Origin: Cordylochernes scorpioides
Taxonomy: Eukaryota > Arthropoda > Arachnida > Pseudoscorpiones > Chernetidae
Assembly: GCA_030710605.1 (NCBI GenBank)
Contig: CP092877.1
Span: forward strand, 45,368,406-45,432,405
Reading direction: 5' to 3'
DNA: 64,000 nucleotides
Part shown: piece after piece, positions 1,565-38,674 of the stretch
Numbering within the stretch: the first letter of the stretch is position 1
Layout: every line of letters starts with the position of its first letter
Notes under the pieces: model-generated
What the model was told of the DNA's origin: nothing
Database searches by the model: none
Seen by the model: the letters and a program-made list of their open reading frames with translations, nothing else
Translations under genes and position numbers: made by a program

Positions 1565-2279
1565 TGTTACAATTATAAATTGGCGCCTTAAATAAATGCG
1601 TATATTAGTTAATAACTATAGCCTATGTGCTTTATCTGTCTATGTACTGTTGGCTTCCGTAGGCGTCTCTTACTGGGAAAAAGAAAGAGAGGATTCCATT
1701 TAGTTATTAACTAATATATGCATTTATTTAAGGAGCGACCCGCTCCAACACAATAGTTACAAAAACCAAAAAGCGAGTGGGGGGGGGGGCAAAGGTGGCG
1801 TGATCGTAGCCAACCAATAGGAGAGCGTCATTCCAAAAAAAAAAGCAAACGGTGACAGAGATGAAAAATTATTAAGAACGCATGACGCTCGTAACTGTAT
1901 ATAGAATAGTCCTGGCTTCACCCAGATTCTACCCCAGGGGAACTACACATATTCAAAATATTCTATGATATTTAATATTTATTTAAAACATATTATTTAG
2001 ATTATCATCATTTATTTTTATAGTTTCATTCCTTTTGTAATATTTTATTGTACATATATCTTGATTGGTTATTGGAGCGAGAGAGGACCTAGACCAAGAC
2101 TGCGGATCACGACCTACGAGGAAGACAACGAATAAATAAACGCAATAACTTTAAAAAGGTGATTTATATTTAATTACTCTTCTTTATTTGCTTTGAGTAT
2201 GGAAACCCGCTCGGTGTATAACATCAAGAAAGGGGAAACCAAGGTCGACGACCCTGCAAAGCTGTAACTCGGTTCAACA
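1565..2279 (+). mobile_element. Candidate solo LTR related to elements B and C
   Basis: The segment opens with TGTTACA and a TGGCG motif as the LTR of element C does. It shares an internal block with C's LTR (TTCTATGATATTTA, TTTAAAACA, GATTATCATCATTT) and closes with GGTTCAACA, like GGTGCAACA in C. Near its end it carries a short open frame, ATGGAAACCCGCTCG (METRS), followed by a stop. This parallels the MVETRS gag start inside the LTRs of B and C. ATAT follows the right end. A 36-bp inverted repeat (1584-1740) lies inside the left half, so an insertion may have enlarged it. The right half is far better supported than the left boundary. Confidence 0.5.
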
Positions 2280-2851: not shown

Positions 2852-3007
2852 TGTGTTGTTATCCAAGACGAGGCAAGATTAACTAAGCATTAGTTTATTT
2901 CCTATTATATTATATATATTATATACAAGTCAAAAGAGATCACTAGCAGAGTATTATTCCTTTTGGTTTCCAGAGCTCAACAATCTATGAGCCTAATACT
3001 CTGCACA
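2852..3007 (-). repeat. 3' LTR of gypsy element A
   Basis: 156 bp, identical by eye to 7186-7341. On the coding strand it directly follows the purine-rich tract GGGAGGAGA. Confidence 0.9.
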
Positions 3008-3022
3008 TCTCCTCCCTTAATT

Positions 3023-6000
3023 TTACAGGAACCTTCGAGGTATCTTGACTGCCCTTCCATATCTTGTATGCACGGCTGGCATTGAAGGGAGGCTCTTCTC
3101 TGGATCCTGGTCTTGGTTGTCCCTCTGCATCCTTCCATCTCTTGTAGATGAGGCCGTTGGTGTAGGGCAATCCTCCTCGGTCTCTTGCTCCTGGTCATCC
3201 TTGCATCTCCTTGAGAGCCAGGTTGATGTCGAAGTGGGGGTCTCCTCATTTCTCTGCTCCTGGCGCTGGCCATCCTCAGAAGCATCCATGGTACTTCCCA
3301 TTTTTGGTAGAGGTGTGAGGTGGAGTCTGTTTCGCCTAACTTTTCCTTGGGGAGTTTGTACCCAATAGGAACGCGGTTCTTCGGATTTGTGAAGAACTGT
3401 TCCTTCTACCCTTTGATCTCTAATCCAAACGCTGTCCCCTTGTTGAAGCGGAGGCAAGCTATGTACATCGTGTCGTTTATCATATAGGCGCTTCTGGTTG
3501 ATCACCCTCCTTTTCTCTCTTTCTTGCAAAGCTTCGGAGTCCAAGTACCTTGGCATCAGTGATGATTCTATTGCTGGAACAGAGGTCCTAAGGCGTCGTC
3601 CCATTAATAGCTCAGCTGGACTATAACCACTTTCCAGGGGCATCGTTCTATATGCTTGAAGAGTCAGATAGCAATCTTCTTCTTTCTTAAAACTTTGCTT
3701 TATATTCTTGATAATTGCTTCAATGAATCCATTGCTTTGAGGGAATTTCGGACTGGATGTGATATGTTTGAAAGACCATTCCTTAGAAAATTTTGAAAAT
3801 TCGGAACCCAGAACTTTTTGGAATTGTGGTCCATTATCGCTCCTCACAGTCTCAGGTGTTCCATGCCTAGCAAATATAGATTTAAGACGGCTTATTACTT
3901 CTTGAGCAGTTAGATTTTGTAAAAGTGATATTTCTGGGTACCTGGAGTAGTAATCACATACAATTAGATACCATCTCCCATTTAGATAAAAGAGATCCAT
4001 TCCGACTTTTTGCCAAGGCCTGATCGGAAATTCTGAGGGCATCAAAGGTTCATGCTTGGGTTTTCTCTCCTTCAAGCATTTTGTACACGACGAAACCATC
4101 CTTTCAATCTCTTTGGAAATTCCTAACCACCAAACCGATTATTTTGCTCTAGATCTGCATTTATTGATCCCAAAATGGCCTTGGTGCAATTTCTCAAGGA
4201 TATCTTTCCTCAATGACTTAGGGATTAGAATTCTTTGTCCTCTAAGAAGAAGACCATTCTGATAGGTCAGGTCCTCCTGAAATTGCCAGTATCCTCTTAG
4301 TGCTGGATCTACTTCTCTTTTATTCTTAGGCCATCCACTCATACAGTATTTAGCCAATTGAGAGCAAAGTGAATCTTCCTTTTGCTTTCTAGAAATCTCC
4401 AAAAGTCTTTCTTCTGTTGCTGGAAATTCAATGGATTGGATGTACGCAGAAAGTTCTTCTTCCAATTCATCTTTATGTGGTTTAGACATAGGCTTCCTTG
4501 ATAACATATCAGCCACTATTTGCTTTTTGCCAGCAATGTGACTTATTTGATAAGAATACCTCATCATCCTCATTTTTAATCGCTGAAGTCTGGGGGTCAT
4601 GTCTTCCAAGGATTTGGACGTAAAAATGGCAATCAGTGATTTGTGATCTGTTTCAATATGGATTTTAATACCTGTAACATAATCCTTTAGTCGATCACAA
4701 GTCCATACTATAGCCAGTCCTTCTTTTTCAATTTGGCTGTATCTTTTCTCCGTTTCTGAAAGTGTTCTAGATACATAAGCTATAGGTTTTAAAGATCCAT
4801 CAGGTTGTTCTTGTCTTAGAACCCCACCTAATCCAAATGAAGAAGCATCAGCCGATACTATGGTCGTTCTTGAGGGATCAAATAAAGCGAGGTTAGGTCT
4901 AGATACTAACTCTTGTTTCAGCAGGTTAAAGCTCTTTTTCTGAGGTTCATCCCAAACCCACTCGTTTTTTGTACTTAGTAACGAATTCAAGGGTTGTAAT
5001 TTATCCGCAAGGTTGGGAATGAATTTTCCTAAATAATTCACCATGCCTAAGAAAGACTTCAATTCTTTTGTTGATCTAGGCGCCTCCATTTTTGTAATAG
5101 CATCGAGCTTTTCTTCGTCAATGAATAAGCCTTCTGAACTCAATGTGTGTCCCAGGAATTTTACAGTTTTAACTCCAAATTGACACTTTTCTGGGTTGAG
5201 TGTCATCCATTCTTCTTGGATTTTCTTCAAAACTTGGCGTACCCTTTCGTTATGTTCTTCTAAGGAAGATCCGTATACTACAATATCATCCATGAAGCAT
5301 ACAAGCCCTTCTATTTTGCCCAGAAGCTGAGTCATCTTTCTTTGAAAGATTTCTGGTGCCGACGTTATTCCAAATGGGATTCTTTTGAAAAAGAACCTGC
5401 CGAATGGCGTTATAAAGGTGGTTAGTTTTTGGGATTCTTTAGCTAACCCAAACTGCCAAAATCCAGAATTTGCATCTAGCTTGGAAAAATAGCAAGCATT
5501 TCCCAGCTGTCCCAGGATATGTTCTGTCGCAGGTAGCGGATAATTTTCTCTTCTTATATACTGATTTAGCTTCGTTAAATCAACACAAATTCTTATTTTT
5601 CCTCCTGGTTTCGATACCGCGACCATTCCCGCGCACCACTCAGTCGGCTCTTCTACTGATTCAATGACTCCTAGCCTGGTCATCTCTTCAAGTTGTTCCT
5701 TTACCTGTTTCATTAAGGGAATTGGAACTCTCCTAGGGGTGCATAAAGCGTATGGTTTCGCATCTGGTTGTAGGGATATTTTGTAATTTATTTTAGCATG
5801 TCCTAAACCATTAAATATTTCTGGAAACTCTCTTTTTGGATTTAAAAAATTTGATGATAATTGCTGAATCATTCTCACAATGTTTAATTTTTCACTTGTC
5901 TCCCCAGAGAGAAGTGGCTGCTTTAGTTTATCAACAATGTATATTTTCGAGTTTAAGTGCTGGCCTTTATTTTGAAGTTTTACGTGGATCATTCCAACTG

Positions 6001-6997
6001 TTTCCAAGGGTATTCCATTTGGACCTTGTAATATTTTATCAGATTTTTCCAGTTTTATTCTTTGGAAACTTTGATAATAATATTGTAGGGGGAGCACGTT
6101 GACATCAGCTCCGGTGTCAATTTTAAAATTAATTTGTCTATTATTTACCTTAATTGGTACTATCCATTTCTTGGAATTATCCTCTACAGATCCCAAAAAA
6201 GCTATCTCTGATTTTATTTCATTTATGGCTTCTGATCTACATACTTTGGCATAATGGCCCTTTTTCTTGCATTTACTACAATACGAGTTCATAGCTGGAC
6301 AATTTTTCCAATCATGATTATTTGAATTGCCACACCTGGTGCATCCATGTGATGACCCTCCCAACTGGTTTGACTTGAATTGTCTTATTTTTTGTTCGTG
6401 CCTTTTTGTTTCTTTTATGTGATTAGGCATTTTCTTTATTTGATCTATAGCATCTTGTTGGTAAAGGCTAGACTGCTGTTCTTTGACACTTTCTAATTGC
6501 TTTGCCATTAGTGTGGCTTTTACTAAGGTCAAGTCTGTATCAAGTTGCATTCTTTCAGATAATGCTCTATCCCTTACTCCAACAACTATCCTATCCCTAA
6601 TCAACTCATCATGTAACATCCCAAAATTGCAGTGCTCAGCTAGGCTATGGAGTGCTGTGATAAATTCATTCACCTTTTCCCCTTCCTGCTGACATCTTTG
6701 ATTAAATCTTGCCCTTTCATAAATTATATTACGTCTTGGAATAAAGTGACTTTCAAAGCATTCAATAACTTTACCATAATTTTCTAGTTGGTCACTTGCT
6801 ATTTTACATGACAACAAAATGTCATCTGCATTATCACCCATGCAGTACACGAGCATATTAACTTGCTCATTTTCTGGGTTATTAATTAACCCGCTTGCCT
6901 GCCTAAAACGTTCAAATCTCCTAATCCATTTTGGCCAATCACCTGGATTTGAAAAATTAAAAGGTTCTGGGGCTACACAATTATAATTTTGGGACAT
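3023..6997 (-). pseudogene. Gag-Pol polyprotein of element A, one in-frame stop
   Basis: A single frame of 1325 codons holds, in order: a gag matrix/capsid region starting MSQNYNCVAPEPF; two zinc knuckles near residues 215-250 (CTRCGNSNNHDWKNC and CSKCKKKGHYAKVC); an aspartic protease (IDTGADVNVLP); reverse transcriptase with an FMDD catalytic box; RNase H (DASSFGLGG, later ETDHKSL); and integrase with its HHCC finger (HQGHFG, CTKC), catalytic Asp (VGMDLF, SDNGPQF) and Glu (GFIEAI). A TAA stop at 4139-4141 splits the frame inside the integrase finger, between RSRAK and SVWWLG, with no shift of frame. Everything else is open, so the break is a single nonsense change. The element should make no complete integrase unless the stop is read through. 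Confidence 0.9.
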
Positions 6998-7040
6998 TAT
7001 AAAGATTTACTTATGATATAATATAACTTACCAAAAAGTT

Positions 7041-7180
7041 TGCTTGATGTCAAGTTTCAAATTTTCTTCGAACAACGACCTTCTTTATGAATTCAGTTTA
7101 CCGCTTCTAAGCTTGCTTGATGTCGAATTTCAAATTTTCTTCGAACAACGACCTTCTTTATGAATTCAGTTTACCGCTGC
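7041..7180. repeat. Two 73-bp tandem units in the leader of element A
   Basis: Two near-identical copies of a 73-bp unit beginning TGCTTGATGTC and ending TTTACCGCT lie between the 5' LTR and the gag start codon. The primer binding site overlaps the end of the LTR-proximal unit. Confidence 0.85.
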
Positions 7181-7185
7181 CACCA

Positions 7186-7341
7186 TGTGTTGTTATCCAA
7201 GACGAGGCAAGATTAACTAAGCATTAGTTTATTTCCTATTATATTATATATATTATATACAAGTCAAAAGAGATCACTAGCAGAGTATTATTCCTTTTGG
7301 TTTCCAGAGCTCAACAATCTATGAGCCTAATACTCTGCACA
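7186..7341 (-). repeat. 5' LTR of gypsy element A
   Basis: 156 bp, identical by eye to 2852-3007. The primer binding site TGGTGGCAGCGG follows at once on the minus strand (7185 downward). Confidence 0.9.
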
Positions 7342-13987: not shown

Positions 13988-14041
13988 GTACTGACTGGCA
14001 CGATCTACTTTACTGGGCTTTAACCTCTATTATATTTCCTT

Positions 14042-14465
14042 CCTTAAATACCACTGAGGGTGGCTGACCACATGGTCTCTTCATATTTCCTTCCTTCAAT
14101 GCCTTCCTCTACTAAGGGTGGGCCATATGATCTCTCCATACTTCCTCCTTCAATGCCTTCCTCTACTGAGGGTGGGCCATATGATCTCTCCATACTTCCT
14201 CCTTCAATGCCTTCCTCTACTAAGGGTGGGCCATATGGTCTCTCCATACTTCCTCCTTTAATGCCTTCCTCTACTGAGGGTGGGCCGCATGGTCTCTCCA
14301 AACTTCCTCCTTCAATGCCTTTCTCTACTGAGGGTGGGCCACATGGTCTCTCCATACTTCCTCCTTTAATGCTTTCCTCTACTGAGGGTGGGCCGCATGG
14401 TCTCTCCATACTTCCTCCTTCAATGCGTTCCTCTACTAAGAGTGGGCCACATGGTCTCTACATGC
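14042..14465. repeat. 54-bp minisatellite in an intron
   Basis: About eight units of 54 bp, for example with CTCCTTCAATGCCTTCCTCT and GAGGGTGGGCCATATG. Because 54 is a multiple of three, long frames stay open on both strands; they are a by-product of the repeat. Confidence 0.9.
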
Positions 14466-14657
14466 TTCCTCCGCCATCCTCTTCATCTTCTCGTAGGTGT
14501 GTCGTCCAGTCCATTGTTTTAAATCGTCTGTGTATCCCTGTCGTCTCCTTCCCCTCGATTTCTTCCCCTGGAGCTTTCCCTCCAACACTGTCAGCAATGT
14601 CTCTCCTGCTGATCCGCGCATCACATATCCAGAAAACGGACCAGCAAATGTATATAA
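14466..14657. other. Possible LINE remnant next to the minisatellite
   Basis: On the minus strand a short frame includes KLQGKKSRGRRRQGYTDDLK, typical of the region after the reverse transcriptase in some LINEs. It is short and stands alone. Confidence 0.35.
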
Positions 14658-14890: not shown

Positions 14891-15238
14891 TGTTGCACTG
14901 GGCTGCGGTTTGGCAGATTCTTCAGTCTTGAGTCTCTCCTCAGACGTGTCTTGCATCTTTCCAGAACGTGTCTCAACCATCTTACAAGGTTAAACCAGTC
15001 AATAATAAGACAACTATAAATTTAGGTAGCACCTAGAATCTCTCTTTATTTACCACATCAAAGTTTAAAGCATGTAGGATATTTAGTGTATCAAAATACA
15101 AATGTTTTATAGTACATAATATTTTATATTAATAATCTGTTTTATAAAAATAAATAAATTTATAATTTAAATTTTAAATATATTAAAAATAATATTATAA
15201 ATAATTTTAAAAATAGGCGCATTAATCATGATGCAACA
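14891..15238 (-). repeat. 3' LTR of gypsy element B
   Basis: 348 bp, identical by eye to 19763-20110. It holds the last codons and stop of pol (stop at 15222) and a second copy of the gag start codon region. Confidence 0.93.
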
Positions 15239-18200
15239 CTTCCCCCTCTCCAGAGGTCGTCACGTCCTCGTGAGTGACCTCATCAATTCTTTCAAAATAG
15301 GGTTTGAGTCTTGAGACATGGACAATCAATGGGTCTTGGCCAGGATTATCTTTCGGCTCAATTAAGTAATTTACGTTGGACAGCTTCTTTAATATTCGAT
15401 ATGGCCCAAAATATTTTCTCAATAGTTTTTCACATTTTCCGATTTTCCTGACTGGTGTCCAAACTGCCACTAAATGTCCTGGTTCATAGATTCTCTCGTT
15501 GTGTTTTTTGTCATAGTTTCTTTTCATTCTTTCCTGAGTCTTCTCTGTGTTGTTAATGACTACCTGTTTCGTCCTTGCTATTTTATCTAAGTAGTTTTCT
15601 ATATATTCGTCGTAATCGTCCATGTTACTGTCCGTTGGGATATTCTCGTCGTCTAAGAGGGACATGGGTTCCCTCCCAAACAACAGGAAAAATGGAGAGT
15701 AGCCTGTGGTTTCTTGAATTGTGGTATTATATGCGTGGGTGATAAAAGGAAGGATTTCGTCCCAGTTCTTCTGATCCGTATTCACATACATGCTGATCAT
15801 ATTGATTAAAGTTCTATTTAGCCGTTCCGTTAGTCCGTTAGTCTGGGGGTGGTAGCTCGTTGTGAAGCAATGTTTAACTTTGCACATTTTCATAACCTCC
15901 TTCATCAAATTGCTAGTGAATTGTGAACCTCTGTCGCTGATAAGAAATCTTGGAGCCCCGTGACGTAAAAATATATGTTCGATCAAAAATGTAGAGACTT
16001 CTTTCACTGTCGCTTCTGGTACTGCCTTTGTTTCAGCATACTTGGTATAATAATCCGTCAACACAATGATCCATTTCCTTCTTCTTTTCGTTGATGGCAA
16101 GGGGCCAACAAAGTCAATTCCGATTCTTTCAAAAGGGTAGTTAGCTGGGGGAATAGGTTGTAGAAGTCCAGATGGCAACTGATTTGAACCTTTCCGACTT
16201 TGGCAAAGATGGCACGTCTTTACAAATTCGGAAACATCTTTCAGCATGGAAGGCCAATAGTATTTATTCTTCAATCGGTATGTGGTTCTGGCGACGCCCA
16301 GATGGCCATTCAGCATATGGTTGTGGTATTCACTCATGATTTCTTTCCTTCTCTTCTTTGGCACTACCAGCAACCATTCTCTACCTTCAGGATTTGGATT
16401 TTTCTTGTAGAGACACCCATTTTCTTCTTTAAAGTTCTGTGTAATTGAACGCTTGTTTCCACTAAGGTTCTCCTTAATATTCTCAATAAAATCATCCTTT
16501 TCGTCTATTATTTGATTCGAAAATAGTCTTTCATAATCCTCGTCCCATTCGTTTTCTGGTAAGGGTCCTCTAGATAGACCATCAGCGTCCAGATGTTTTT
16601 TTCCCGATTTGTGTATAATTTCGAAATTATATTCCTGAATCTTCAGTGCCCATCGTGCTAATCGACCGGTCGGATCTTTCAAATTCTTAAGCCAGCATAG
16701 TGCGTGATGATCAGTTACGATTTTAAAGTGCCTTCCATATAAATAGGGCCGTAATTTTGATATCGACCACACTACAGCTAAACATTCCTTTTCGGTGGTT
16801 GAATAATTTTGCTCAGGTTTACTTAGGGTTCGGCTCAAATATGATATTACCTTCTCTTCGCCACCGATATTTTGAATTAGTGTTGCGCCTAAGCCGATGT
16901 TAGAGGCATCTGTGTGAATGCAGGTGGCTGCATTTGGATCAAAGTGACCTAAAATTGGCGGATTCATAAGAGCTTTTTTAAGGTTTTGGAACGCTTCTTC
17001 CTGTTTTCCTGTCCAGATAAATTGCACATTTTTTCTGATGAGACTGGTCAATGGGTCAGCGATTAATGAGAAATCTTTAATAAATTTTCTATAATATGAG
17101 CACATTCCTAGGAATGATTGCACTTCTTTGGCCTTCTTGGGCTGAGGAAAATCTCTAACGGCTTTGATATTATATTCGGCAGGTTTTATACCCTCTTGGT
17201 TGGTTATATGTCCAAGGATCTCAAGTTCTTCGAAAGCAAATCTGCATTTCTTGGCGTTCAGTTTTAAATTAGATTCGCTGAAGCATCTGAGGACAGCTTC
17301 AAGTCTTTTAATGTGGGTTGGAAAGTCCGAGCTGTATATAATTACATCGTCCAGGTAGCAAAGGCAAATCTGCCATCTCAGATTTCCGAGGACATTGTCC
17401 ATATTCCTCTCAAAAGTAGCAGGGGCGTTGCATAGACCGAAGGGCATTACGTTGAATTCATATAACCCGTGTGCAGTAGTGAAAGCCGTCTTCTCTTTGT
17501 CTCTCTCTTCAATTTCGACTTGCCAATATCCCGATTTGAGATCTATTGCTGAGAAGTACTTGGATCCTTGGAGAGTATCCATTACATCATCAATTCTTGG
17601 GATTGGATAAACATCCTTCACTGTTACTTCATTTAATTTCCTGTAGTCCACACAAAATCTGTATTTGCCATCTCGTTTTTTGACCAATATAACGGGAAAG
17701 GACCAGGGACTTGAAGATTGTCTAATTATTCCTTCTTCGAGCATCTCGTCTATTTGATCCTTTATGATGGTTCGTTCCTTAGCGCTTACCCGGTAAGGCT
17801 TGTGCTTTATTGGTTTTGCGTCTTCTGTATGAATCTGATGTTTTGCCAAACTGGTCCTACCTAACCTCGATGAGAACAAATCAGTATACTTGGCCAAAAT
17901 TTGTTTTAACCTCTCTTGTTCTTTAAATGTTAAATTTTTGTTTATTTGAAATTGTATTTCGTCATTTTCATTCTGCTTCTCTTTATTCTCTATAAAATTT
18001 ACCCGTGCAGGAAGACTTCCATAAGCCAATGTTTGGTCTTTCATGATTTTTAAAGGTCGAGGATAAGGGTTCGTTATCCAGATATGGGTTTTCTTATCCG
18101 TGACAGTAAGCAAACTTCTTGCCAATCGAAGACCATTTGTTTGAGTCATTCTGTTGTTCTCTTCGATGACATATTCGCCATCCTCTGCTTCTATTGAGGC

Positions 18201-18692
18201 CCTAATCAATTTAATAGATAGTTTAGGTATAACGGTATCTGTAGTGCTCTTTATTTTTTTTAGATCATAATTGCTTACGTCATGATTACTCATCAAATTA
18301 TATTTTATTGTTTCTCGTTTACAATCAATTTTAGCATTCATTTTTTTAAGGAAATCTCGTCCAAGAATAAGAGTTCGTAGATGCGCGTCCATTACTACAA
18401 ATTCGTGGGTTAATTCAGTGTCATCAATTTTTAAATCTAAAATAATGCTACCTACCATATCTAATTTTTTTCCATCGGGTCCTGAACACATTTTAGTGAG
18501 ACTATTTATTTCACGGCCAGCAAAAAGTGCTGTTCTTAGGTCGACCACTGAAAGATCGGCGCCTGTATCAATCAAAGCTTCGCATAACCCTATCTTGTCC
18601 ACATTAATATTAATTTTGTACCTAGGGTCCAACTTTCTAATTCCATTTATGGTCGACTTGCTTTGATTGAAGGAATCAGGCGCGACACTTAG
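15222..18692 (-). CDS. Pol polyprotein of element B
   Basis: The frame is open from the frameshift site at 18698 to a stop inside the 3' LTR; the first Met is at 18632 (1136 residues). From that Met, domains run: aspartic protease (IDTGADLSVVD near residue 21), reverse transcriptase (CYLDDVIIYSSD, catalytic DD), RNase H (HTDASNIGLGA, VTDHHALCWL), integrase zinc finger (HNHMLNGHLG, CHLCQ), integrase core (GIDFVGPLP, SDRGSQF, GLTERLN) and a C-terminal GPY/F module (FGPYRILKKL). All catalytic residues I can check are present. Pol is in the -1 frame relative to gag and should be made as a Gag-Pol fusion by slippage at TTTAAAC. It catalyses reverse transcription and integration of the element. Confidence 0.95.
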   Translation of the reverse strand, partial: LSVAPDSFNQSKSTINGIRKLDPRYKININVDKIGLCEALIDTGADLSVVDLRTALFAGREINSLTKMCSGPDGKKLDMVGSIILDLKIDDTELTHEFVVMDAHLRTLILGRDFLKKMNAKIDCKRETIKYNLMSNHDVSNYDLKKIKSTTDTVIPKLSIKLIRASIEAEDGEYVIEENNRMTQTNGLRLARSLLTVTDKKTHIWITNPYPRPLKIMKDQTLAYGSLPARVNFIENKEKQNENDEIQFQINKNLTFKEQERLKQILAKYTDLFSSRLGRTSLAKHQIHTEDAKPIKHKPYRVSAKERTIIKDQIDEMLEEGIIRQSSSPWSFPVILVKKRDGKYRFCVDYRKLNEVTVKDVYPIPRIDDVMDTLQGSKYFSAIDLKSGYWQVEIEERDKEKTAFTTAHGLYEFNVMPFGLCNAPATFERNMDNVLGNLRWQICLCYLDDVIIYSSDFPTHIKRLEAVLRCFSESNLKLNAKKCRFAFEELEILGHITNQEGIKPAEYNIKAVRDFPQPKKAKEVQSFLGMCSYYRKFIKDFSLIADPLTSLIRKNVQFIWTGKQEEAFQNLKKALMNPPILGHFDPNAATCIHTDASNIGLGATLIQNIGGEEKVISYLSRTLSKPEQNYSTTEKECLAVVWSISKLRPYLYGRHFKIVTDHHALCWLKNLKDPTGRLARWALKIQEYNFEIIHKSGKKHLDADGLSRGPLPENEWDEDYERLFSNQIIDEKDDFIENIKENLSGNKRSITQNFKEENGCLYKKNPNPEGREWLLVVPKKRRKEIMSEYHNHMLNGHLGVARTTYRLKNKYYWPSMLKDVSEFVKTCHLCQSRKGSNQLPSGLLQPIPPANYPFERIGIDFVGPLPSTKRRRKWIIVLTDYYTKYAETKAVPEATVKEVSTFLIEHIFLRHGAPRFLISDRGSQFTSNLMKEVMKMCKVKHCFTTSYHPQTNGLTERLNRTLINMISMYVNTDQKNWDEILPFITHAYNTTIQETTGYSPFFLLFGREPMSLLDDENIPTDSNMDDYDEYIENYLDKIARTKQVVINNTEKTQERMKRNYDKKHNERIYEPGHLVAVWTPVRKIGKCEKLLRKYFGPYRILKKLSNVNYLIEPKDNPGQDPLIVHVSRLKPYFERIDEVTHEDVTTSGEGEVLHHD

Positions 18693-19852
18693 TTTAAATC
18701 TTCCAACACTGAATATCTATTCCGTGTAGGAATATTCATTTGTGTGTCATTACAAACATCCGCATAGAGGCGAGGCCGTGTATAATCTTTCCTTTCGTCT
18801 ATTTGAAGATTTTCTTGGCTCTTGTCTTGGGAAACTGAGGGGTCCTCTTCTACGATCCTCACAAACTTGACTCTGCAATACCGCGCTACGTGTCCTGGCT
18901 TGTTACACTTGAAACATATTGGTCTCCCGTCTTCTGTCCTATTCCTGTTTGAATCTGGACTCTTATTGTAGGTTTTTCTTGGGTAGACCGGTTTTGGCTC
19001 AGGAATGGGAGTGTAAAATCGTCTAGGGGCAGATACCTGGGGCAGCGGCTTGTTTTGGTAGTACCTCGGAGCGGGGGCCTGGGGCTTGGGGGTGTTCTGG
19101 TAGTACCTCAGAGCGGGGGCCTGGGGCTTGGAGGTGTTCTGGTCTGGTCTTCTGAACGACGGAGCGTTCTTCCATTGCTCTTGATGGTGGGAACGAGGAG
19201 AGCGTGGTCCATTATATAGAACCTTTGATTTTTCTATACGTTCTTGATAATTATTTTCAAACAAATCCATCTTTTTACACAATCTTAGGAGTTCGTTGGT
19301 ATTCTTAGGAGGGTTTAAGTAGAGGGCAAAAGAGTATTCTTTCTTTAACCCTCCAATAACCCAATTTATTTTATTCTCTTCTTCCATTTGGGGGTCGACC
19401 TTGTTGCACAGAACCAGGATATCCTCTGCAAACCTGATTGCAGGTTCATTCCACTGCTGCATTCTGTTCAGCCTCATCTTCAATTCTTCTTTGTTGGCGT
19501 CTGAGCCAAAATCCTGAATTAGGCGGCTCTTGAAATGTTCCCAGCTGGTAAAACTTATCTTGTGTAGGTCCAGCCAGGTTTTGGCGCTACCAATCATGTT
19601 CATGGCTGCATAGCGAGAAATAATATATTCTGCCCAGTGGTACAGGAAGCCAATTTCTTCAAGGGACTCAATCCATGGGCGAGGGTCTTCTGTTCCATCA
19701 TATTTGGGGATGTCTATGTTGGGGTTCAAAACAACTGGGTCGGCACTTGCATCTCTACCAATTGTTGCACTGGGCTGCGGTTTGGCAGATTCTTCAGTCT
19801 TGAGTCTCTCCTCAGACGTGTCTTGCATCTTTCCAGAACGTGTCTCAACCAT
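18689..19852 (-). CDS. Gag protein of element B (start inside the LTR)
   Basis: 387 codons. The protein begins MVETRSGKMQ, has a capsid-like middle (PKYDGTEDPRPWIESLEEI), a proline-rich repeat segment (QNTSKPQAPALRYYQNTPKP) and one zinc knuckle (CFKCNKPGHVARYCR) that should bind the element's RNA. The ATG at 19852 lies 90 bases inside the 5' LTR, so the primer binding site is translated as part of gag. The frame ends ...GAT TTA AAC TAA, with the stop overlapping the slippery heptamer. The same layout in element C argues that it is functional and not a chance start. Confidence 0.93.
   Translation of the reverse strand: MVETRSGKMQDTSEERLKTEESAKPQPSATIGRDASADPVVLNPNIDIPKYDGTEDPRPWIESLEEIGFLYHWAEYIISRYAAMNMIGSAKTWLDLHKISFTSWEHFKSRLIQDFGSDANKEELKMRLNRMQQWNEPAIRFAEDILVLCNKVDPQMEEENKINWVIGGLKKEYSFALYLNPPKNTNELLRLCKKMDLFENNYQERIEKSKVLYNGPRSPRSHHQEQWKNAPSFRRPDQNTSKPQAPALRYYQNTPKPQAPAPRYYQNKPLPQVSAPRRFYTPIPEPKPVYPRKTYNKSPDSNRNRTEDGRPICFKCNKPGHVARYCRVKFVRIVEEDPSVSQDKSQENLQIDERKDYTRPRLYADVCNDTQMNIPTRNRYSVLEDLN
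18692..18698 (-). promoter_or_regulatory. -1 ribosomal frameshift heptamer TTTAAAC (element B)
   Basis: In the gag frame the bases read T TTA AAC followed at once by TAA. TTTAAAC is one of the most efficient known -1 slippery heptamers, and shifting back one base enters the open pol frame. The same heptamer, in the same place, is present in element C at 30844. A downstream RNA structure was not assessed. Confidence 0.85.
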
Positions 19853-20110
19853 CTTACAAGGTTAAACCAGTCAATAATAAGACAACTATAAATTTAGGTA
19901 GCACCTAGAATCTCTCTTTATTTACCACATCAAAGTTTAAAGCATGTAGGATATTTAGTGTATCAAAATACAAATGTTTTATAGTACATAATATTTTATA
20001 TTAATAATCTGTTTTATAAAAATAAATAAATTTATAATTTAAATTTTAAATATATTAAAAATAATATTATAAATAATTTTAAAAATAGGCGCATTAATCA
20101 TGATGCAACA
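19763..20110 (-). repeat. 5' LTR of gypsy element B
   Basis: 348 bp, identical by eye to 14891-15238. It contains the gag start codon at 19852. Confidence 0.93.
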
Positions 20111-27795: not shown

Positions 27796-27955
27796 TATTT
27801 ATATAAAACGACACTTGAAGTTTCACCGCATGAGTTTATTTTCAACGACAAATTAAAATTTTATTTTAAGGTGAAATATCGACCATTTCTAACCTTTTGG
27901 ATGAGGTATGAAAGAATGAATTATGAAGAGTAATGACGAACGGAAAAATAAAAGT

Positions 27956-28028
27956 GTCCATGGATGGGAATCGAACCCACAATGTTCCGCTTACCGGGCA
28001 GATGCCATGTCCACTAGGCTACCCTGGA
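27956..28028 (-). tRNA. tRNA-like cloverleaf, copy 1
   Basis: 73 nt that fold as a cloverleaf with one mismatch in the acceptor stem. The B-box is GGGTTCGATTCCC and the anticodon loop CCGGTAA (GGT). It resembles a SINE head more than a standard tRNA-Thr. Confidence 0.55.
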
Positions 28029-28252
28029 CGTGTTTTTCCGTTCGTATATGATACATAAATTAACTTATAATAGAATATAATACACTGCGGCATGTAATTG
28101 TAAAACGACACTTGAAGTTTCACCTCATAAGTTTCTTTTCAACGACAAATTAAAATTTTATTTTAAGGTGAAATATCGACCATTTCTAACCTTTTGGATG
28201 AGGTATGAAAGGATGAATTATGAAGAGTAATGACGAACGGAAAAATAAAAGT

Positions 28253-28325
28253 GTCCAGGGATGGGAATCGAGCCCACAATGTTCCGCTTACCGGGCAGAT
28301 GCCATGTCCACTAGGCTACCCTGGA
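28253..28325 (-). tRNA. tRNA-like cloverleaf, copy 2 (fully paired acceptor)
   Basis: Acceptor TCCAGGG pairs with CCCTGGA over all seven positions. The D stem is GCC/GGC, the anticodon stem TCTGC/GCGGA around loop CCGGTAA, and the T stem GTGGG/CCCAT. The T loop is CTCGATT instead of TTCGATT. Anticodon GGT would read Thr ACC codons if functional. It lies in a tandem repeat, so a tRNA-derived repeat is more likely than a host tRNA gene. Confidence 0.6.
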
Positions 28326-28496
28326 CGTATTTTTCCGTTCGTATATGATACATAAAGTAACTTATAATAGAATATAATACACTGCGGTATGTAATTGTAA
28401 AACGACACTTGAAGTTTCACCGCATGAGTTTCTTTTCAACGACAAATTAAAAGGTTAGAAATGGTCTATATTTCACCTTAAAATGTTGTTATGTAA

Positions 28497-29443: not shown

Positions 29444-29779
29444 TGTTACATCATGATTAATGGCGTATTTATTATATTATTTTTAATATATTTGAAATTT
29501 AAATTATATATTTATTTATTTTTATATTCTATGATATTTATTTAAAACAGATTATTTTTAGATTATCATCATTTGTATTTAGGTACACTGTGACTTCACT
29601 GCTCTCTTTGATGTGAGAAAATAAATAAATGATTCTGGTGGCTACATAAAGTAGACTTATCTCATTATTCCCTTTTATAAATTTGTAGGATGGTTGAAAC
29701 ACGCTCTGGTAAGATGCAAGACCCAGCACAGGAGAGAATCCAGGCTGAAGAGTCTGCCAAGCCGCAACCTGGTGCAACA
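29444..29779 (+). repeat. 5' LTR of gypsy element C
   Basis: 336 bp from TGTTACATCATG to GGTGCAACA; includes AATAAATAAATG near 29620 and the gag start codon at 29690. Confidence 0.93.
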
Positions 29780-30853
29780 ATTGGTAGAGATGCTAGTTCC
29801 GACCCAGTTGTCCTGAATCCCAACATCGACATCCCCAAGTATGATGGAACAGAAGACCCTCGCCCATGGATTGAATCTCTTGAAGAAATTGGCTTCCTGT
29901 ACCATTGGGCAGACTACATTATCTCCCGTTATGCTGCCATGAATATGATTGGTAGCGCCAAAACCTGGCTGAACCTACACAAAGTAAGTTTCACCAGCTG
30001 GGAAAATTTCAAGAGCCGCCTAATTGAGGATTTTGCCTCAGACGCCAACAAAGAAGAAATGAGGATGAGATTAAACAGGATACAACAGTGGAATGAACCT
30101 GCAATCAGGTTCGCAGAGGATATCCTTGTACTGTGCAACAAGGTCGACCCCCAAATGGAAGAAGAGACTAAAATAAACTGGGTTATTGGAGGGTTAAAGA
30201 AAGAATACTCTTTTGCCCTTCACCTAAACCCTCCTAAAAATACCAATGAACTTCTAGAAATTTGTAAAAAGCTGGATTTGTTCGAAAAGAATTACCAAGA
30301 ACGTGCAGAAAAATCAAAAGCTCTTTATAATGGACCACGCTCTCCTCGTCCCCATCATCAAGAGCAATGGAAGAATGCTACGTCGTTCAGAAGACCATAT
30401 CAGAACACCTCCAAGCCCCAGGCCCCCGCTCCGAGGTACTACCAGAACACCTCCAAGCCCCAGGCCCCCACTCCGAGGTATTACCAGAACAAGCCTCTGC
30501 CCCAGGTATCTGCCCCTAGACGATCTTACACTCCCAATCCTGAGCCAAAACCGGTCTACCCAAGTAAAACATACAATAAGAATCCAAATTCAAATAGGAA
30601 TAGGACAGAAGACGGGAGACCAATATGTTTCAAGTGTAACAAGCCAGGACACGTAGCGCGGTATTGCAGAGTCAGGTTTGTAAGAATTGTGGAAGAGGAC
30701 CCCATAGTTACACAAGACAAGGTCGAAGAAGAAATCCGAATGGATAATGGAACTCAGAAGTCGAGACCTCTGCTCTACTCTGACGTAAGTAATAGCCCGT
30801 ACTCGAGTATCCCTACAAGGAATAGATATGCTGCATTAGAAGATTTAAACTAA
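29690..30853 (+). CDS. Gag protein of element C (start inside the LTR)
   Basis: 387 codons, the same length as gag of B and mostly alike. It begins MVETRSGKMQ, contains PKYDGTEDPRPWIESLEEI and a proline-rich repeat (QNTSKPQAPAPRYYQNTSKP), and has one zinc knuckle (CFKCNKPGHVARYCR). The first 30 codons lie in the LTR. The C terminus differs from B (PLLYSDVSNSPYSSIPTRN). It ends GAT TTA AAC TAA, overlapping the slippery heptamer. The frame is intact, so Gag may still be made although Pol is broken. Confidence 0.92.
   Translation: MVETRSGKMQDPAQERIQAEESAKPQPGATIGRDASSDPVVLNPNIDIPKYDGTEDPRPWIESLEEIGFLYHWADYIISRYAAMNMIGSAKTWLNLHKVSFTSWENFKSRLIEDFASDANKEEMRMRLNRIQQWNEPAIRFAEDILVLCNKVDPQMEEETKINWVIGGLKKEYSFALHLNPPKNTNELLEICKKLDLFEKNYQERAEKSKALYNGPRSPRPHHQEQWKNATSFRRPYQNTSKPQAPAPRYYQNTSKPQAPTPRYYQNKPLPQVSAPRRSYTPNPEPKPVYPSKTYNKNPNSNRNRTEDGRPICFKCNKPGHVARYCRVRFVRIVEEDPIVTQDKVEEEIRMDNGTQKSRPLLYSDVSNSPYSSIPTRNRYAALEDLN
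30844..30850 (+). promoter_or_regulatory. -1 ribosomal frameshift heptamer TTTAAAC (element C)
   Basis: T TTA AAC directly before the TAA stop of gag; slipping back one base enters pol. Position and sequence are the same as in element B. Confidence 0.83.
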
Positions 30854-33800
30854 ACATCGCGCCTGAGTCCGTCAATCAAAGCAAGTCGACCATAAATGGA
30901 ATTAAAAAGTTAGACCCCAAATATAAAATGAACATTAACGTGGATAGAATCGGTATCTGCGAAGCTTTGATTGATACAGGCGCCGATCTTTCAGTGGTCG
31001 ACCTTAGTACAGCTCTTAACACAGGTCTTGAAATAATAAATCCTGATAAAATGTGCTCCGGACCCGATGGCAAAGAATTAGATATCGTAGGAAATATTAT
31101 TTTAAATATAAAATTTGATGACAAAACAATTACACATCAATTTGTGATAATGAGAACACATTTGCGAATATTTATACTTGGACGTGATTTTCTTAAGAAA
31201 ATGAACGCAAAAATTGATTGTCAGCGTGAAATAATCAAATATGACTTGACAGAAAATCGTGACGTAATCAAATATCAACAGAAGAAAATAAAAAGTGCAA
31301 AGGATGCCATTATACCAGAACTTTCTATTAAATTGATTAATGCATTTGTGGAAGCAGAGGATGGCGAATACATCATCGAGGAGAACCATAAAATGTTTCA
31401 AACAAATGGACTTCGACTAGCGAGAAGCTTAATAAATGTTGTGAATAAGGAAACATATATCTGGATAACAAACCCTTACCCTCGACCATTAAAAATATTA
31501 AAAAAACCAAACATTGTGCTTTGGAAGCCAGCCAGCCGAAGTGAATCTTATGGAAGAAAGTGAACAAAAAGAGCATGAAGAACCCCAATTTCAGATAAAC
31601 GAAAATTTAGCATATACGGAAAAGGAACAATTGAAACAAGTTTTGGAAAGGTACGAGGATTTGTTTTCGTCGGGATTAGGAAGATCCAACTTAGCGAAAC
31701 ATCGGATCGATACAGAAGGCGCGAAACCGATCAAACACAAGCCGTATAGGGTGAGCGCGAAAGAGCGAGAAATCATAAAAGAACAAATTGATGAAATGCT
31801 CAGATACGGCATAATTAGACCATCCTCGAGTCCATGGTCCTTCCCTGTAATCTTGGTCAAGAAGCGAGATGGTAAGTACAGATTTTGCGTTGACTACAGA
31901 AAATTGAATGATGTAACAGTGAAGGATGTTTACCCAATTCCCAGAATTGATGAAGTATTGGATACACTTCAAGGATCCAAATACTTTTCAGCAATTGACC
32001 TTAAATCAGGATATTGGCAAGTAGAGGTTGAGGAGAAAGATAAAGAAAAGACAGCCTTCACTACAGCACATGGCCTATATGAGTTCAACGTAATGCCCTT
32101 TGGTCTATGCAATGCCCCTGCTACATTTGAGAGGAACATGGAAAATATGCTTGGTAATCTTAGATGGCAAATTTGCTTATGTTATCTAGATGACGTAATC
32201 ATTTATAGCTCGGATTTTTCAACACATCTCAAAAGAATAGAAGCTGTTTTAAAATGTTTTCGCGAGGCTAATTTAAAATTGAACAACAAAAAATGCCAAT
32301 TTGCTTTCGAAGAACTGGAGATTCTTGGCCATATAACTAATCAACATGGTATAAAACCAGCGGAGCATAATATCAAGGCTATTAGAGATTTTCCTCGGCC
32401 CAAAAAGATAAAAGAAGTTCAATCATTTTTAGGAATGTGCTCATATTATAGAAAATTTATCAAAGGTTTTTCAAAAATTGCCGATCCATTAACCAGTCTT
32501 ATAAAAAAGAATGTACCTTTTACCTGGACAGAAAATCAAGAAAAAGCATTTCAAACCCTTAAAGTAGCATTGATAAATCCTCCAATCTTAGGGCACTTTG
32601 ACCCGAATGCAATTACTTACATTCATACTGACGCATCTAACATCGGCCTGGGTGCAACATTAGTCCAAAAGTTCGGCGATAAAGAAAAAGTTATCTCATA
32701 TTTAAGTCGAACACTGAGCAAACCTGAGCAAAATTATTCGACTACCGAAAAAGAATGTCTAGCTGTTGTGTGGTCAATGTCCAAGTTACGACCCTACCTA
32801 TATGGAAGGCACTTCAAAATCGTAACTGATCATCACGCACTATGCTGGCTTAAGAATCTGAAAGATCCGACCGGCCGATTAGCACGATGGGCACTGAAGA
32901 TTCAGGAATATAATTTCGAAATCATACATAAATCGGGTAAAAAACATCTGGACGCTGATGGTCTATCTAGAGGACCCTTACCTGAAAACGAATGGGACGA
33001 AGATTATGAAAGACTATTTCTGAATCAAATAATAGACGAAAAGGATGATTTTATTGAGAATATTAAGGAGAACCTTAGTGGAAACAAGCGTTCAATTACA
33101 CAGAACTTCAAAGAAGAAAATGGGTGTCTCTACAAGAAAAATCCAAATCCTGAAGGTAGGGCATGGTTGCTGGTAGTGCCAAAGAAGAGAAGGAAGGAAG
33201 TCATGAGTGAATACCACAACCATATGCTGAATGGCCATCTGGGCGTCGCCAGAACCACTTACCGATTGAAGAATAAATACTATTGGCCTTCCATGTTGAA
33301 AGATGTTTCAGAATTTGTAAAGACGTGCCATCTTTGCCAAAGTCGGAAAGGTTCAAATCACTTGCCTTCTGGACTTCTACAACCTATTCCCCCAGCTAAC
33401 TACCCTTTTGAAAGAATCGGAATTGACTTTGTTGGCCCCTTGCCATCAACGAAAAGAAGAAGGAAGTGGATAATTGTGTTGACTGATTATTATACCAAGT
33501 ATGCTGAAACAAAGGCAGTATCAGAAGCAACCGTGAAAGAAGTCTCTACATTTTTAATCGAACATATTATTTTACGTCACGGGGCCCCAAGATTTCTTAT
33601 TAGCGATAGAGGTTCACAATTCACTAGCAATTTGATGAAGGAGGTAATGAAAATGTGCAAAGTGAAACACTGCTTCACAACGAGCTACCACCCCCAGACT
33701 AACGGACTAACGGAACGGCTAAATAGAACTTTAATCAATATGATCAGCATGTATGTGAACACAGACCAAAAGAACTGGGATGAAATCCTCCCTTTTATCA

Positions 33801-34402
33801 CCCACGCGTATAATACCACGATTCAAGAAACCACAGGCTACTCCCCATTTTTCCTGTTGTTTGGAAGGGAACCCATGTCCCTCTTAGACGACGAGAATAT
33901 CCCAACGGACAGTAACATGGACGATTACGACGAATATATAGAAAACTACTTAGATAAAATAGCAAGGACGAGACAGGTAGTCATTAACAACACAGAGAAG
34001 ACTCAGGAAAGAATGAAAAGAAACTATGACAAAAAACACAATGAGAAAATCTATGAACCAGGACATTTAGTGGCAGTTTGGACACCAGTCAGGAAAATCG
34101 GAAAATGCGAAAAACTATTGAGAAAATATTTTGGCCCATATCGAATATTAAAGAAGCTGTCTAACGTAAATTACTTAATTGAGCCGAAAGATAATCCTGG
34201 CCAAGACCCATTGATTGTCCATGTCTCAAGACTCAAACCCTATTTTGAGAGAATTGATGAGGTAACTCACGAGGACGTGACGACCTCTGGAGAGGGGGAG
34301 TGTTACATCATGATTAATGGCGTATTTATTATATTATTTTTAATATATTTGAAATTTAAATTATATATTTATTTATTTTTATATTCTATGATATTTATTT
34401 AA
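30850..34402 (+). pseudogene. Pol polyprotein of element C, one frameshift
   Basis: Domains in order: aspartic protease (IDTGADLSVVD), reverse transcriptase (CYLDDVIIYSSD), RNase H (HTDASNIGLGA), integrase finger (HNHMLNGHLG, CHLCQ), integrase core (GIDFVGPLP, SDRGSQF, GLTERLN) and GPY/F module (FGPYRILKKL). The frame changes in the A-run at about 31500-31507, between PRPLKIL and the sequence matching QTL. This cuts the protease from the reverse transcriptase, and the first part stops at 31563. Compared with B, one extra A explains the shift. The C-terminal tail runs into the 3' LTR and ends later than in B. Confidence 0.93.
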
Positions 34403-34636
34403 AACAGATTATTTTTAGATTATCATCATTTGTATTTAGGTACACTGTGACTTCACTGCTCTCTTTGATGTGAGAAAATAAATAAATGATTCTGGTGGCT
34501 ACATAAAGTAGACTTATCTCATTATTCCCTTTTATAAATTTGTAGGATGGTTGAAACACGCTCTGGTAAGATGCAAGACCCAGCACAGGAGAGAATCCAG
34601 GCTGAAGAGTCTGCCAAGCCGCAACCTGGTGCAACA
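34301..34636 (+). repeat. 3' LTR of gypsy element C
   Basis: 336 bp, identical by eye to 29444-29779; follows the purine tract GGAGAGGGGGAG. Confidence 0.93.
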
Positions 34637-35618: not shown

Positions 35619-36926
35619 CGAGGTGTGTTCAAAAAGTATCGCGACTTTTGAATTTTCGCGGGTTACGTATATTCGAATTTCGATCTTTTGGTACTCATGT
35701 CTCTCACTTATGCCGACAAGCTCGGCCATTTTGAATGTTCACTCAATTGTTGACAGCTGCTTTGCTTGCAGGTGTTTTGGATCGTCTTCGATTTTTACCT
35801 ATTAAAAAAATGGATCTAAGAACCTGTATCAAATTTTGTGTGAAAAACGAAATTAAGTGCGCGGATGCATTCCGAATGTTGACTGTGGCATACGGAGAAG
35901 CTACCTTGGACCGAAGCAACGTTTATCGGTGGTACAAAATGTTCTCAGAAGGCCGAGAAGATGTGAACGACGAAGAGCGTGCCGGACGCCCGAGCACTTC
36001 AAGAACAGACGAAAAATTAATGAAGTGGAGAAAATGATATTGGCCAATCGTCGAATCACCGTTAGAGAAGTTGCTGAGGACCTAAACATATCGATTGGCT
36101 CGTGCAATTCGATTTTTATCAATGAATTGGGCATGAGACGGGTCGCCGCGAAATTCGTACCAAAATTGCTCAATTGCGACCAAAAACAGCATCGCATGAA
36201 CATTACTAATGAGATGTTGGACTCTGTCCGCGACGACCCAAATTTGCTCCAGAGGGTCATAACTGGTGACGAAGCGTGGGTTTATGGTTATGACGTGGAA
36301 ACCAAAGCTCAATCATCTCAATGGAAGCTGCCGCACGAACCAAGACCGAAAAAAGCGCGCCAAGTTCGGTCGAATGTGAAAGTTTTGCTGACTGTTTTCT
36401 TCGATTGCAGGGGCGTGGTGCATCATGAGTTCTTGCCACAGGGTAGAACGGTCAATAAGGAATATTACCTGCAATTTATGCGCAATTTGCGCGAAGCAAT
36501 ACGCCAGAAACGCCCGGATTTGTGGAAGAACAAAAATTGGCTTTTGCACCACGATAACACCCCTGCTCACACATCGTTGCTTGTGCGCGACTTTTTGGCC
36601 AAAAACAACACACTAATGATGCCGCAGCCACCGTATTCCCCAGATCTGGCCCCCTGTGACTTTTTCTTGTTCCCTAAACTGAAGAGGCCCATGAAAGGAC
36701 GACGTTACGCTACGCTTGACGAGATAAAGACGGCATCGAAGGAGGAGCTGAAAAAGATTTTTTTTTAAATGATTTTTTGAAGTGCTTCGAAGATTGGAAA
36801 AACCGTTGGCACAAGTGTATAATATTTCATGGGGATTACTTTGAAGGGGACAAAATAGGTATTCATGAATAAATAAATAATATTTGAAAAAACACAAAGG
36901 TCGCGATACTTTTTGAACACACCTCG
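35619..36926 (+). mobile_element. Mariner transposon
   Basis: 1308 bp between TA dinucleotides, inside a T4 element. Terminal inverted repeats, CGAGGTGTGTTCAAAAAGTA at left and its exact inverse at right, match over at least 25 bases. It contains a mariner transposase gene broken by two frameshifts. Confidence 0.95.
35810..36872 (+). pseudogene. Mariner transposase, two frameshifts
   Basis: Normal length for the family (about 354 codons). The N-terminal paired-type DNA-binding half (MDLRTCIKFCVKNEIK, VYRWYKMFSEGREDV, GRPSTS) is in one frame. The rest (VREVAEDLNISIGS, then the catalytic domain) is in another; the shift lies in an A-run near 36012. The catalytic triad is intact as D,D34D: TGDEAWVYGYD, HHDNTPAHTS and SPDLAPCDFFLF. 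A second shift in the T-run near 36760 detaches the last 35 residues or so. Both breaks are in homopolymers. An intact enzyme would cut and paste elements at TA. Confidence 0.93.
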
Positions 36927-37319: not shown

Positions 37320-37414
37320 AATGTTAAAGCACGATTTCGATTATAGAATAGAAAATAAGACCCACAAATCCAAATAAATTAATAGTGTGTGACATTTTGG
37401 TGGTTTTGTCTGGT
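37320..37414. repeat. MITE family T5, left arm
   Basis: AAAGCACGATTTCGATTATA, AATAAGACCCACAAATCC and ATAGTGTGTGACATTTTGG belong to T5; the matching right arm is at about 39960-40015. A minisatellite and a T7 element lie between. Confidence 0.65.
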
Positions 37415-38582
37415 CCATGGAGTAGATCAGATCAGTCCATGCACCCTGATCACAATACCGGCCAACTGAGGTGTCGTCCATGGAGCAGATCAGATCAGTC
37501 CATGCACCCTGATCACAATACTGGCCAACTGAGGTGCTTTGTCCATGGAGCAGATCAGATCAGTCCATGTACCCTGATCACAATACTGGCCAACTGAGGT
37601 GCCTTGTCAATAGAACAGATCAGATCAGTCCATGCACCCTGATCACAATACCGGCCAACTGAGGTGCCTTGTCCATGGAGCAGATCAGATCAGTCCATGC
37701 ACCCTGATCACAATACCGGCCAACTGAGGTGCCTTGTCCATGGAACAGATCAGATCAGTCCATGCACCCTGATCACAATACCGGCCAACAGAGGTACCTT
37801 GTCCATGGAGCAGATCAGATCAGTCCATGCACCCTGATCACAATACCGGCCAACAGAGGTGCCTTGTCAATGGAACAGATCAGATCAGTCCATGCACCCT
37901 GATCACAATACCGGCCAACTGAGGTGCCTTGTCCATGGAGCAGATCAGATCAGTCCATGCACCCTGATCACAATACCGGCCAACTGAGGTACCTTGTCCA
38001 TGGAGCAGATCAGATCAGTCCATGCACCCTGATCACAATACCGGCCAACTGAGGTGCCTTGTCCATGGAGCAGATCAGATCAGTCCATGCACCCTGATCA
38101 CAATACCGGCCAACTGAGGTGCCTTGTCCATGGAGCAGATCAGATCAGTCCATGCACCCTGATCACAATACCGGCCAACAGAGGTACCTTGTCCATGGAG
38201 CAGATCAGATCAGTCCATGCACCCTGATCACAATACCGGCCAACTGAGGTGCCTTGTCAATGGAACAGATCAGATCAGTCCATGCACCCTGATCACAATA
38301 CCGGCCAACTGAGGTACCTTGTCCATGGAGCAGATCAGATCAGTCCATGCACCCTGATCACAATACCGGCCAACTGAGGTACCTTGTCCATGGAGCAGAT
38401 CAGATCAGTCCATGCACCCTGATCACAATACCGGCCAACTGAGGTGCCTTGTCAATGGAACAGATCAGATCAGTCCATGCACCCTGATCACAATACCGGC
38501 CAACTGAGGTGCCTTGTCAATGGAACAGATCAGATTGGTCCATGCACCCTGATCACAATACCGGCCAACTGAGGTGCCTTGT
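37415..38582. repeat. 65-bp minisatellite, 18 units
   Basis: Seventeen 65-bp units and one 63-bp unit, each with CAGATCAGATCAGTCCATGC and CCTGATCACAATACCGGCC. Variants at a few positions (GGAGCAG/GGAACAG, ACTGAGG/ACAGAGG, GTGCC/GTACC) occur in a mixed order. Confidence 0.95.
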
Positions 38583-38674
38583 CCGTATGGATGTCCTCTT
38601 CTGGATTGACAGAATAATAAATCCTATCAAGAATAGATTTATTCTTGGATTTGGATAACGATTTGGTAACAATA

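Follow-up and report, generated by a model that had tools for sequence, protein, structure and literature searches.

Elements in the window

The window analysed here, a stretch of 64,000 nucleotides from contig CP092877.1 of the pseudoscorpion Cordylochernes scorpioides, contains the LTR retrotransposons A, B and C and a solo LTR of a further family, D (Table 1). Elements B and C are each flanked on both sides by an ATAT target duplication, and the two LTRs of each element are identical (0 differences over 348 bp in B and over 336 bp in C). The LTRs begin with TG and end with CA, and together with the 4-bp target duplications they have the form expected of Ty3/gypsy elements (Metaviridae), in which the duplication is short, at 4-6 bp. 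In the B pol product, Pfam matches to RVT_1 (317-476) and RT_RNaseH (565-668) precede that to rve (833-929), which is the Ty3/gypsy order of RT and RNase H before integrase. Membership of B in Ty1/copia (Pseudoviridae) was rejected, as the integrase-before-RT order is absent. The top solved-structure match to B pol in a sequence search was Ty3 (7q5b, E 2e-145). By termini and domain order, B and C are classed as Ty3/gypsy elements. A scan for close relatives found none among viral contigs. Among genome contigs, a single fragment with 41% identity was returned (L040, SVBD01000028.1), a Ty3/gypsy pol relative in what is labelled an Erysipelotrichaceae MAG and is probably eukaryotic contamination.

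Downstream of gag, B carries pol as one ORF, unlike the two-frame pol of C; because of this split, C itself may be inactive. Just 5′ of the gag stop TAA, both elements have the motif TTTAAAC (18692-18698 on the minus strand in B, 30844-30850 on the plus strand in C), which we take to be a classical frameshift heptamer, and pol lies in the -1 frame. This combination is likely a programmed frameshift site. A shared fold downstream of the motif was not found in the following 80 bases, which give -12.1 kcal/mol in B and -3.0 kcal/mol in C. Both pol frames stop inside the 3′ LTR (15222-15238 in B, 17 bases; 34301-34402 in C, 102 bases), so that at either end of the element an open frame overlaps the LTR. 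In C, this extension reaches deep into AT-rich sequence. Structure prediction for B Gag, with C as the sole other row, returned a mean pLDDT of 37.2.

Table 1. Positions of retrotransposon features and other features in the window
Feature	Position	Strand	Details
Solo LTR, family D	1958..2279 (5′ edge approximate)	+	ATG 2199-2201 (METRS...), 27-codon frame with one stop, TAA
Element A	2852-7341	-	156-bp identical LTRs, target duplication GTTAT, TGGTGGCAGCGG at LTR edge
Tandem array	14038-14545		54-bp units
Element B, Ty3/gypsy, both LTRs	14891..20110	-	5220 bp; identical LTR pair, ATAT flanks, Pfam domains
B 3′ LTR	14891..15238	-	348 bp, identical to 5′ LTR; bears second copy of gag start
B pol ORF (PR-RT-RNaseH-IN)	15222..18632	-	-1 frame relative to gag; final 17 bases inside 3′ LTR
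B gag ORF	18689..19852	-	387 aa; Retrotrans_gag 81-170, zinc knuckle 312-326
B putative primer binding site TGGTAGAGATGC	19749..19760	-	In gag frame
B 5′ LTR	19763..20110	-	348 bp, TG...CA
B LTR-encoded Gag codons 1-30	19763..19852	-	MVETRSGKMQDTSEERLKTEESAKPQPSAT
B AATAAA	19917..19922	-	70 bases upstream of gag ATG
Tandem duplication	27804-28397		297 bp, tRNA-Thr gene in each copy
Element C, Ty3/gypsy, both LTRs	29444..34636	+	5193 bp; pol in two frames
C 5′ LTR	29444..29779	+	336 bp
C AATAAA	29620..29625	+	70 bases upstream of gag ATG
C LTR-encoded Gag codons 1-30	29690..29779	+
C gag ORF	29690..30853	+	387 aa
C putative primer binding site TGGTAGAGATGC	29782..29793	+	In gag frame
C pol, first open piece	30928..31563	+	Protease region
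C pol, second open piece	31514..34402	+	Other frame; extends 102 bases into 3′ LTR
C 3′ LTR	34301..34636	+	336 bp, identical to 5′ LTR
Mariner-like transposase ORF	35857-36768		Transposase_1, DDE_3
Tandem array	37346-38685		65-bp units

A gag start in the LTR and its copies in the genome

An initial annotation of this DNA placed the gag ATG of B and C about 90 bases from the inner end of the LTR, which would make the first 30 codons LTR sequence and leave the likely primer binding site (PBS) translated. The LTR and ORF coordinates bear out each of these points. The ATG (19852 in B, 29690 in C) lies exactly 90 bases before the inner end in both elements, so that 30 whole Gag codons are encoded within the LTR and its last base closes a codon. 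Past the LTR, both elements read ATTGGTAGAGATGC, translated as I-G-R-D-A. Its first two bases, AT, are followed by the putative PBS, which thus starts 2 nt beyond the LTR, stands in the Gag frame, and is better trimmed from the TTGGTAGAGATG first annotated to TGGTAGAGATGC. The frame runs unbroken from an ATG upstream of the LTR end through the putative PBS, and it is open across the junction in two elements that have diverged (Gag proteins 84% identical; LTRs 76% identical over 321 aligned positions). The start context is AAGATGG / AGGATGG. In both elements the AATAAA motif is found at -70 relative to the ATG, and in the window's copy of D it lies at -68. Further ATGs are found upstream, at -61 and -79 in C and at -78 and -93 in B, and would fall in the leader if transcription began further upstream.

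The host genome (2.62 Gb in 24 contigs) was searched for other copies with the same layout, as had been suggested at the outset. For B Gag, the best 107 of 31,091 candidates were scored; all span residues 1-387, and 106/107 are free of stops. For C Gag, the best 107 of 30,832 candidates likewise span residues 1-387, and none carries a stop. With only the top candidates scored, these counts are lower bounds and are biased to close copies. On the 5′ side, 20 B and 30 C copies were read, counting those of the window itself, and the ATG lies 90 bases before the LTR end in 20/20 and 30/30. Each of the 50 has an open 387-codon gag with ATTGGTAGAGATGC directly past the LTR. For one C copy (L068), another LTR close by had served as the anchor, and the layout was resolved separately.

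Of 39 regions retrieved from the other end, 37 yielded a 3′ LTR (18/19 for B, 19/20 for C), and target duplications were matched by script in 18/19 B and 16/20 C copies. The single B miss and one of the C misses lack a located 3′ LTR. Among the other C misses, one is a single-base difference and in two the 336-bp span used by the script is offset, apparently from changes in 5′ LTR length. ATAT is strongly preferred as the duplicated sequence in B and C copies (L001-L039, L041-L090), with a few cases of GTAT, ATAC and ATAG. The LTRs of 34/37 located pairs differ by 0-2 bases, so most insertions are recent; the remaining pairs (L007, L049 and L058) are length variants or shifted, and were miscounted by the ungapped comparison. 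B copies are ~99% alike and C copies likewise, so that each family amounts to nearly one observation. The independent comparison is therefore that of B with C, with D as weaker support.

Family D was approached through its LTR. The initial annotation had described the solo LTR as an echo of the B and C layout, and this stands in part: the ATG and the METRS peptide are present, but the frame is not open, with a TAA at the site where B and C read CAG/CAA. The best 40 of 3,166 candidates were scored in a genome search, with 100% identity for the window copy and 92-94% for the rest; they comprise 20 LTR ends with downstream sequence, 19 whole LTRs and the window copy. The ATG is kept in 38 of these 40 rows and lost in 2, a stop interrupts the frame in 5, and 1 has a frameshift, all of which we read as the decay of dead copies. 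The frame measures 81 nt in 29 rows, 87 nt in 10 and 88 nt in 1, compared with 90 nt in B and C. The length variants differ by whole codons in 39/40 rows, including one (L119) that is unaligned at its tail and has an unreliable end. Variable sites are spread evenly over the codon positions (18/15/16 in 38 rows, with L115 and L119 dropped). Such a spread is what neutral decay of dead copies would leave, and it neither supports nor weakens the case for selection before insertion.

Two further D comparisons were set aside. Counting against L100 alone (8/7/44) was misleading, as differences in the single reference are recounted in every comparison. The values for D against B and C (dN 0.35-0.44, dS 0.50-1.29) are unusable, coming from decayed copies that are too diverged. 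Internal sequence, ATTGTTGGAGATGCT, follows only two D rows, L102 and L115. In L102 the frame runs through the internal sequence and stops at codon 45, and in L115 a frameshift falls in the LTR part. No intact D gag or full-length D element was found among the 40 rows, including the two with internal sequence. Family D supports an ancestral LTR frame, short of proving its use.

Coding constraint, a candidate primer and the 3′ LTR

The strongest argument for translation from the LTR comes from the codons just beyond it, and is independent of the statistics on the LTR part. Gag codons 31-83 differ between B and C at 16 sites, distributed 2/0/14 over the codon positions, with 2 amino-acid changes. 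Judged by this pattern, they are translated and under strong purifying selection. In-frame ATGs in the N-terminal part of gag are found only at codons 1 and 9, the next being codon 84. Because codons 31-83 are selected and no other in-frame ATG precedes codon 84, an in-frame AUG start would have to lie in the LTR.

Within the LTR, the 90 coded bases also carry 16 differences between B and C, at 7/0/9 over the codon positions. Estimated over the 30 LTR codons, as had been proposed, dN is 0.107 and dS 0.697. Sixteen randomly placed changes would miss codon position 2 with P 0.0007. Amino-acid changes number 7 against 10.7 expected (P 0.02), a modest result by itself. No gaps separate B from C in the 90 coded bases, whereas the remainder of the LTR has 4 gap events. 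Conservation of the coded tail exceeds that of this remainder only modestly (differences at 16/90 versus 70/241 sites, Fisher P 0.048). The early impression that the frame looks selected is upheld by the codon-position pattern, by the lack of a usable ATG before codon 84 and by the recurrence of the layout in 50/50 copies.

Could Gag instead begin at a non-AUG codon or in a spliced upstream exon, the LTR frame being a chance opening? Ninety bases can stay open by chance, and 59% of neutral simulations were stop-free. However, this account is hard to reconcile with the strong purification of codons 31-83 in a frame that has no ATG between codons 9 and 84, or with 0/16 changes at codon position 2 in the LTR part. 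Family D also shares the frame, and its shorter variants (81 and 87 against 90 nt) are whole-codon changes in 39/40 rows. We consider a chance opening very improbable. A second possibility is that the 90 bases are conserved as an RNA element, acting in leader folding, packaging or primer annealing, and that the open frame is secondary. The LTR terminus and the PBS must be conserved in any case. In Ty1, dense cis-acting structure is described in the 5′ region of the RNA, overlapping GAG (PMC5454406). Nonetheless, an RNA element alone predicts neither the avoidance of codon position 2 nor gaps that are absent or span whole codons, and as the main explanation it is unlikely. The RNA-element and coding roles may both hold together.

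The putative PBS was compared with host tRNA ends. A pattern joining a T-arm to CATCTCYA gave 71 matches in the genome, against 9 for a reversed control pattern, and 62/71 read GTTCRATCC...CATCTCCA. We take these to be probable ends of tRNA-Ala. The complement of such tRNA-Ala-like ends plus CCA is TGGTGGAGATGC, with which the B and C site agrees at 11/12 bases. This host end is the best primer match found, and tRNA-Ala is the candidate primer. Six of the 71 matches carry CATCTCTA, a perfect fit to the PBS, with T-arms that are not tRNA-like by eye. Initiator tRNA-Met presumably agrees with about the first six bases of the PBS. Self-priming of the Tf1 type found no support, since no stretch of the LTR in B or C agrees with the 11-base complement of the PBS at more than 6/11 positions.

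The mismatch to the tRNA-Ala-like end is identical in all 50 B and C copies. It falls at base 5 of TGGTAGAGATGC, where G is expected, and this base sets Gag residue 33 (AGA, Arg, versus GGA, Gly). Use of a different primer, tolerance of the mismatch or a constraint on the PBS as coding sequence could each account for it. In reverse transcription the PBS is normally rewritten with the tRNA as template, which should erase such a difference. It is doubtful, with only a small chance in our estimation, that selection on the Gag protein for Arg33 holds a non-matching primer site in place.

The layout is real and probably functional. Very probably, B and C are Ty3/gypsy elements that were active recently and have a compressed 5′ leader, and their Gag is translated from the LTR ATG through the primer site. 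Transcription would start within the LTR, ahead of the gag ATG, and yield a short 5′ UTR. Since AATAAA precedes the ATG by 70 bp, polyadenylation is expected before the ATG, which would then lie in U5. Translation would start at this ATG and run through the remaining U5, the two post-LTR bases and the PBS into Gag. The primer site would thereby be used doubly, as the template for the primer tRNA and as Gag codons 31-35. The element RNA would carry the gag start once, near its 5′ end, and finish before the second copy. Because the one U5 in the RNA is the template for U5 in both LTRs during reverse transcription, the coding stretch appears in both, and the gag start of the 3′ LTR would be a by-product.

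That second gag start had been noted as one that could open translation into flanking host DNA. The ATG and 30 open codons are indeed kept in 37/37 located 3′ LTRs, and flanking DNA then follows, but the frames that continue into it are short, like those at random sites. They have a mean of 12, a median of 8 and a maximum of 59 codons, and 3/36 reach 30 codons (n = 36; of the 39 3′ regions, two without a located LTR and one whose frame had not closed when the retrieved sequence ended were dropped). Random ATAT sites in the window (n = 1228) have a mean of 21 and a median of 9 codons, with 16% at 30 codons or more. The AATAAA motif ~70 bp upstream of the ATG implies that element transcripts should end before the 3′ LTR start, which could matter only for transcripts beginning in the 3′ LTR. 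There is no sign in these frames that the 3′ LTR starts are used. A role in host-fusion proteins, for which the LTR-borne start would be kept, would account for its presence in all 37 located 3′ LTRs. However, in insertions this young the start should still be present even if nothing selects for it, and in the old D copies variation is spread evenly among the codon positions (18/15/16, 38 rows). Disfavoured also by the position of AATAAA ahead of the ATG and by flank frames with a median of 8 codons against 9 at the random sites, this role was rejected as extremely improbable.

Comparison with known retrotransposons

The B pol shares its domain order, PR-RT-RNaseH-IN, with Ty3 of S. cerevisiae and with Ty3/gypsy elements generally. 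The Ty3 PBS is described as bipartite, with one part adjoining the 5′ UTR and two others located in the 3′ UTR (PMC4974528); it lies outside gag, whereas the putative PBS of B and C lies within it. Among the plant centromeric Ty3/gypsy elements, the 3′ end of the coding region of CRM group A enters the 3′ LTR (PMC3059260). B and C are alike in this respect (17 bases in B, 102 in C), and additionally have the gag start in the 5′ LTR. No chromodomain was reported in the Pfam scan of B pol. Nearer at hand, element A resembles B in having RT before integrase, and its match to Retrotrans_gag is weak and below the cut-off. Unlike B and C, it is conventional, with 188 bases from the LTR to the first ATG of the ORF; the gag-in-LTR layout is therefore not universal among the RT-before-integrase elements here. 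A literal search of titles and abstract openings in the open-licence literature found no Ty3/gypsy element with a gag start in the LTR, which is weak evidence of absence.

The closest precedent for the layout is Ty1 of S. cerevisiae, a Ty1/copia element (Pseudoviridae). Its LTR ends just before the PBS, so its AUG is in the LTR. The Ty1 5′ UTR spans nt 1-53 and the PBS nt 95-104, inside the GAG ORF (PMC5454406, PMC4974528), so that Ty1, like B and C, combines a short 5′ UTR with an AUG upstream of the PBS. By arithmetic from these positions, ~14 Ty1 codons lie in the LTR, compared with 30 in B and C. Ty1 belongs to the other superfamily, B pol having RT before integrase, and its primer is initiator tRNA-Met, whereas the best match in B and C is a tRNA-Ala-like end. 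The initial annotation, which contrasted the layout with the untranslated leader of most LTR elements, is supported for the LTR start and the translated putative PBS, and needed this Ty1 precedent beside it.

These elements present a Ty1-type arrangement in a Ty3/gypsy lineage rich in young copies, a natural setting for asking how a single short stretch of RNA can meet protein, primer and LTR-end constraints together. For annotation, a gag model confined to the sequence between the LTRs would start at codon 84 and miss the first 83 residues. Real coding sequence is included in the LTR models of families like these. A gag start in the LTR is a known solution, that of Ty1, found here in a different superfamily.
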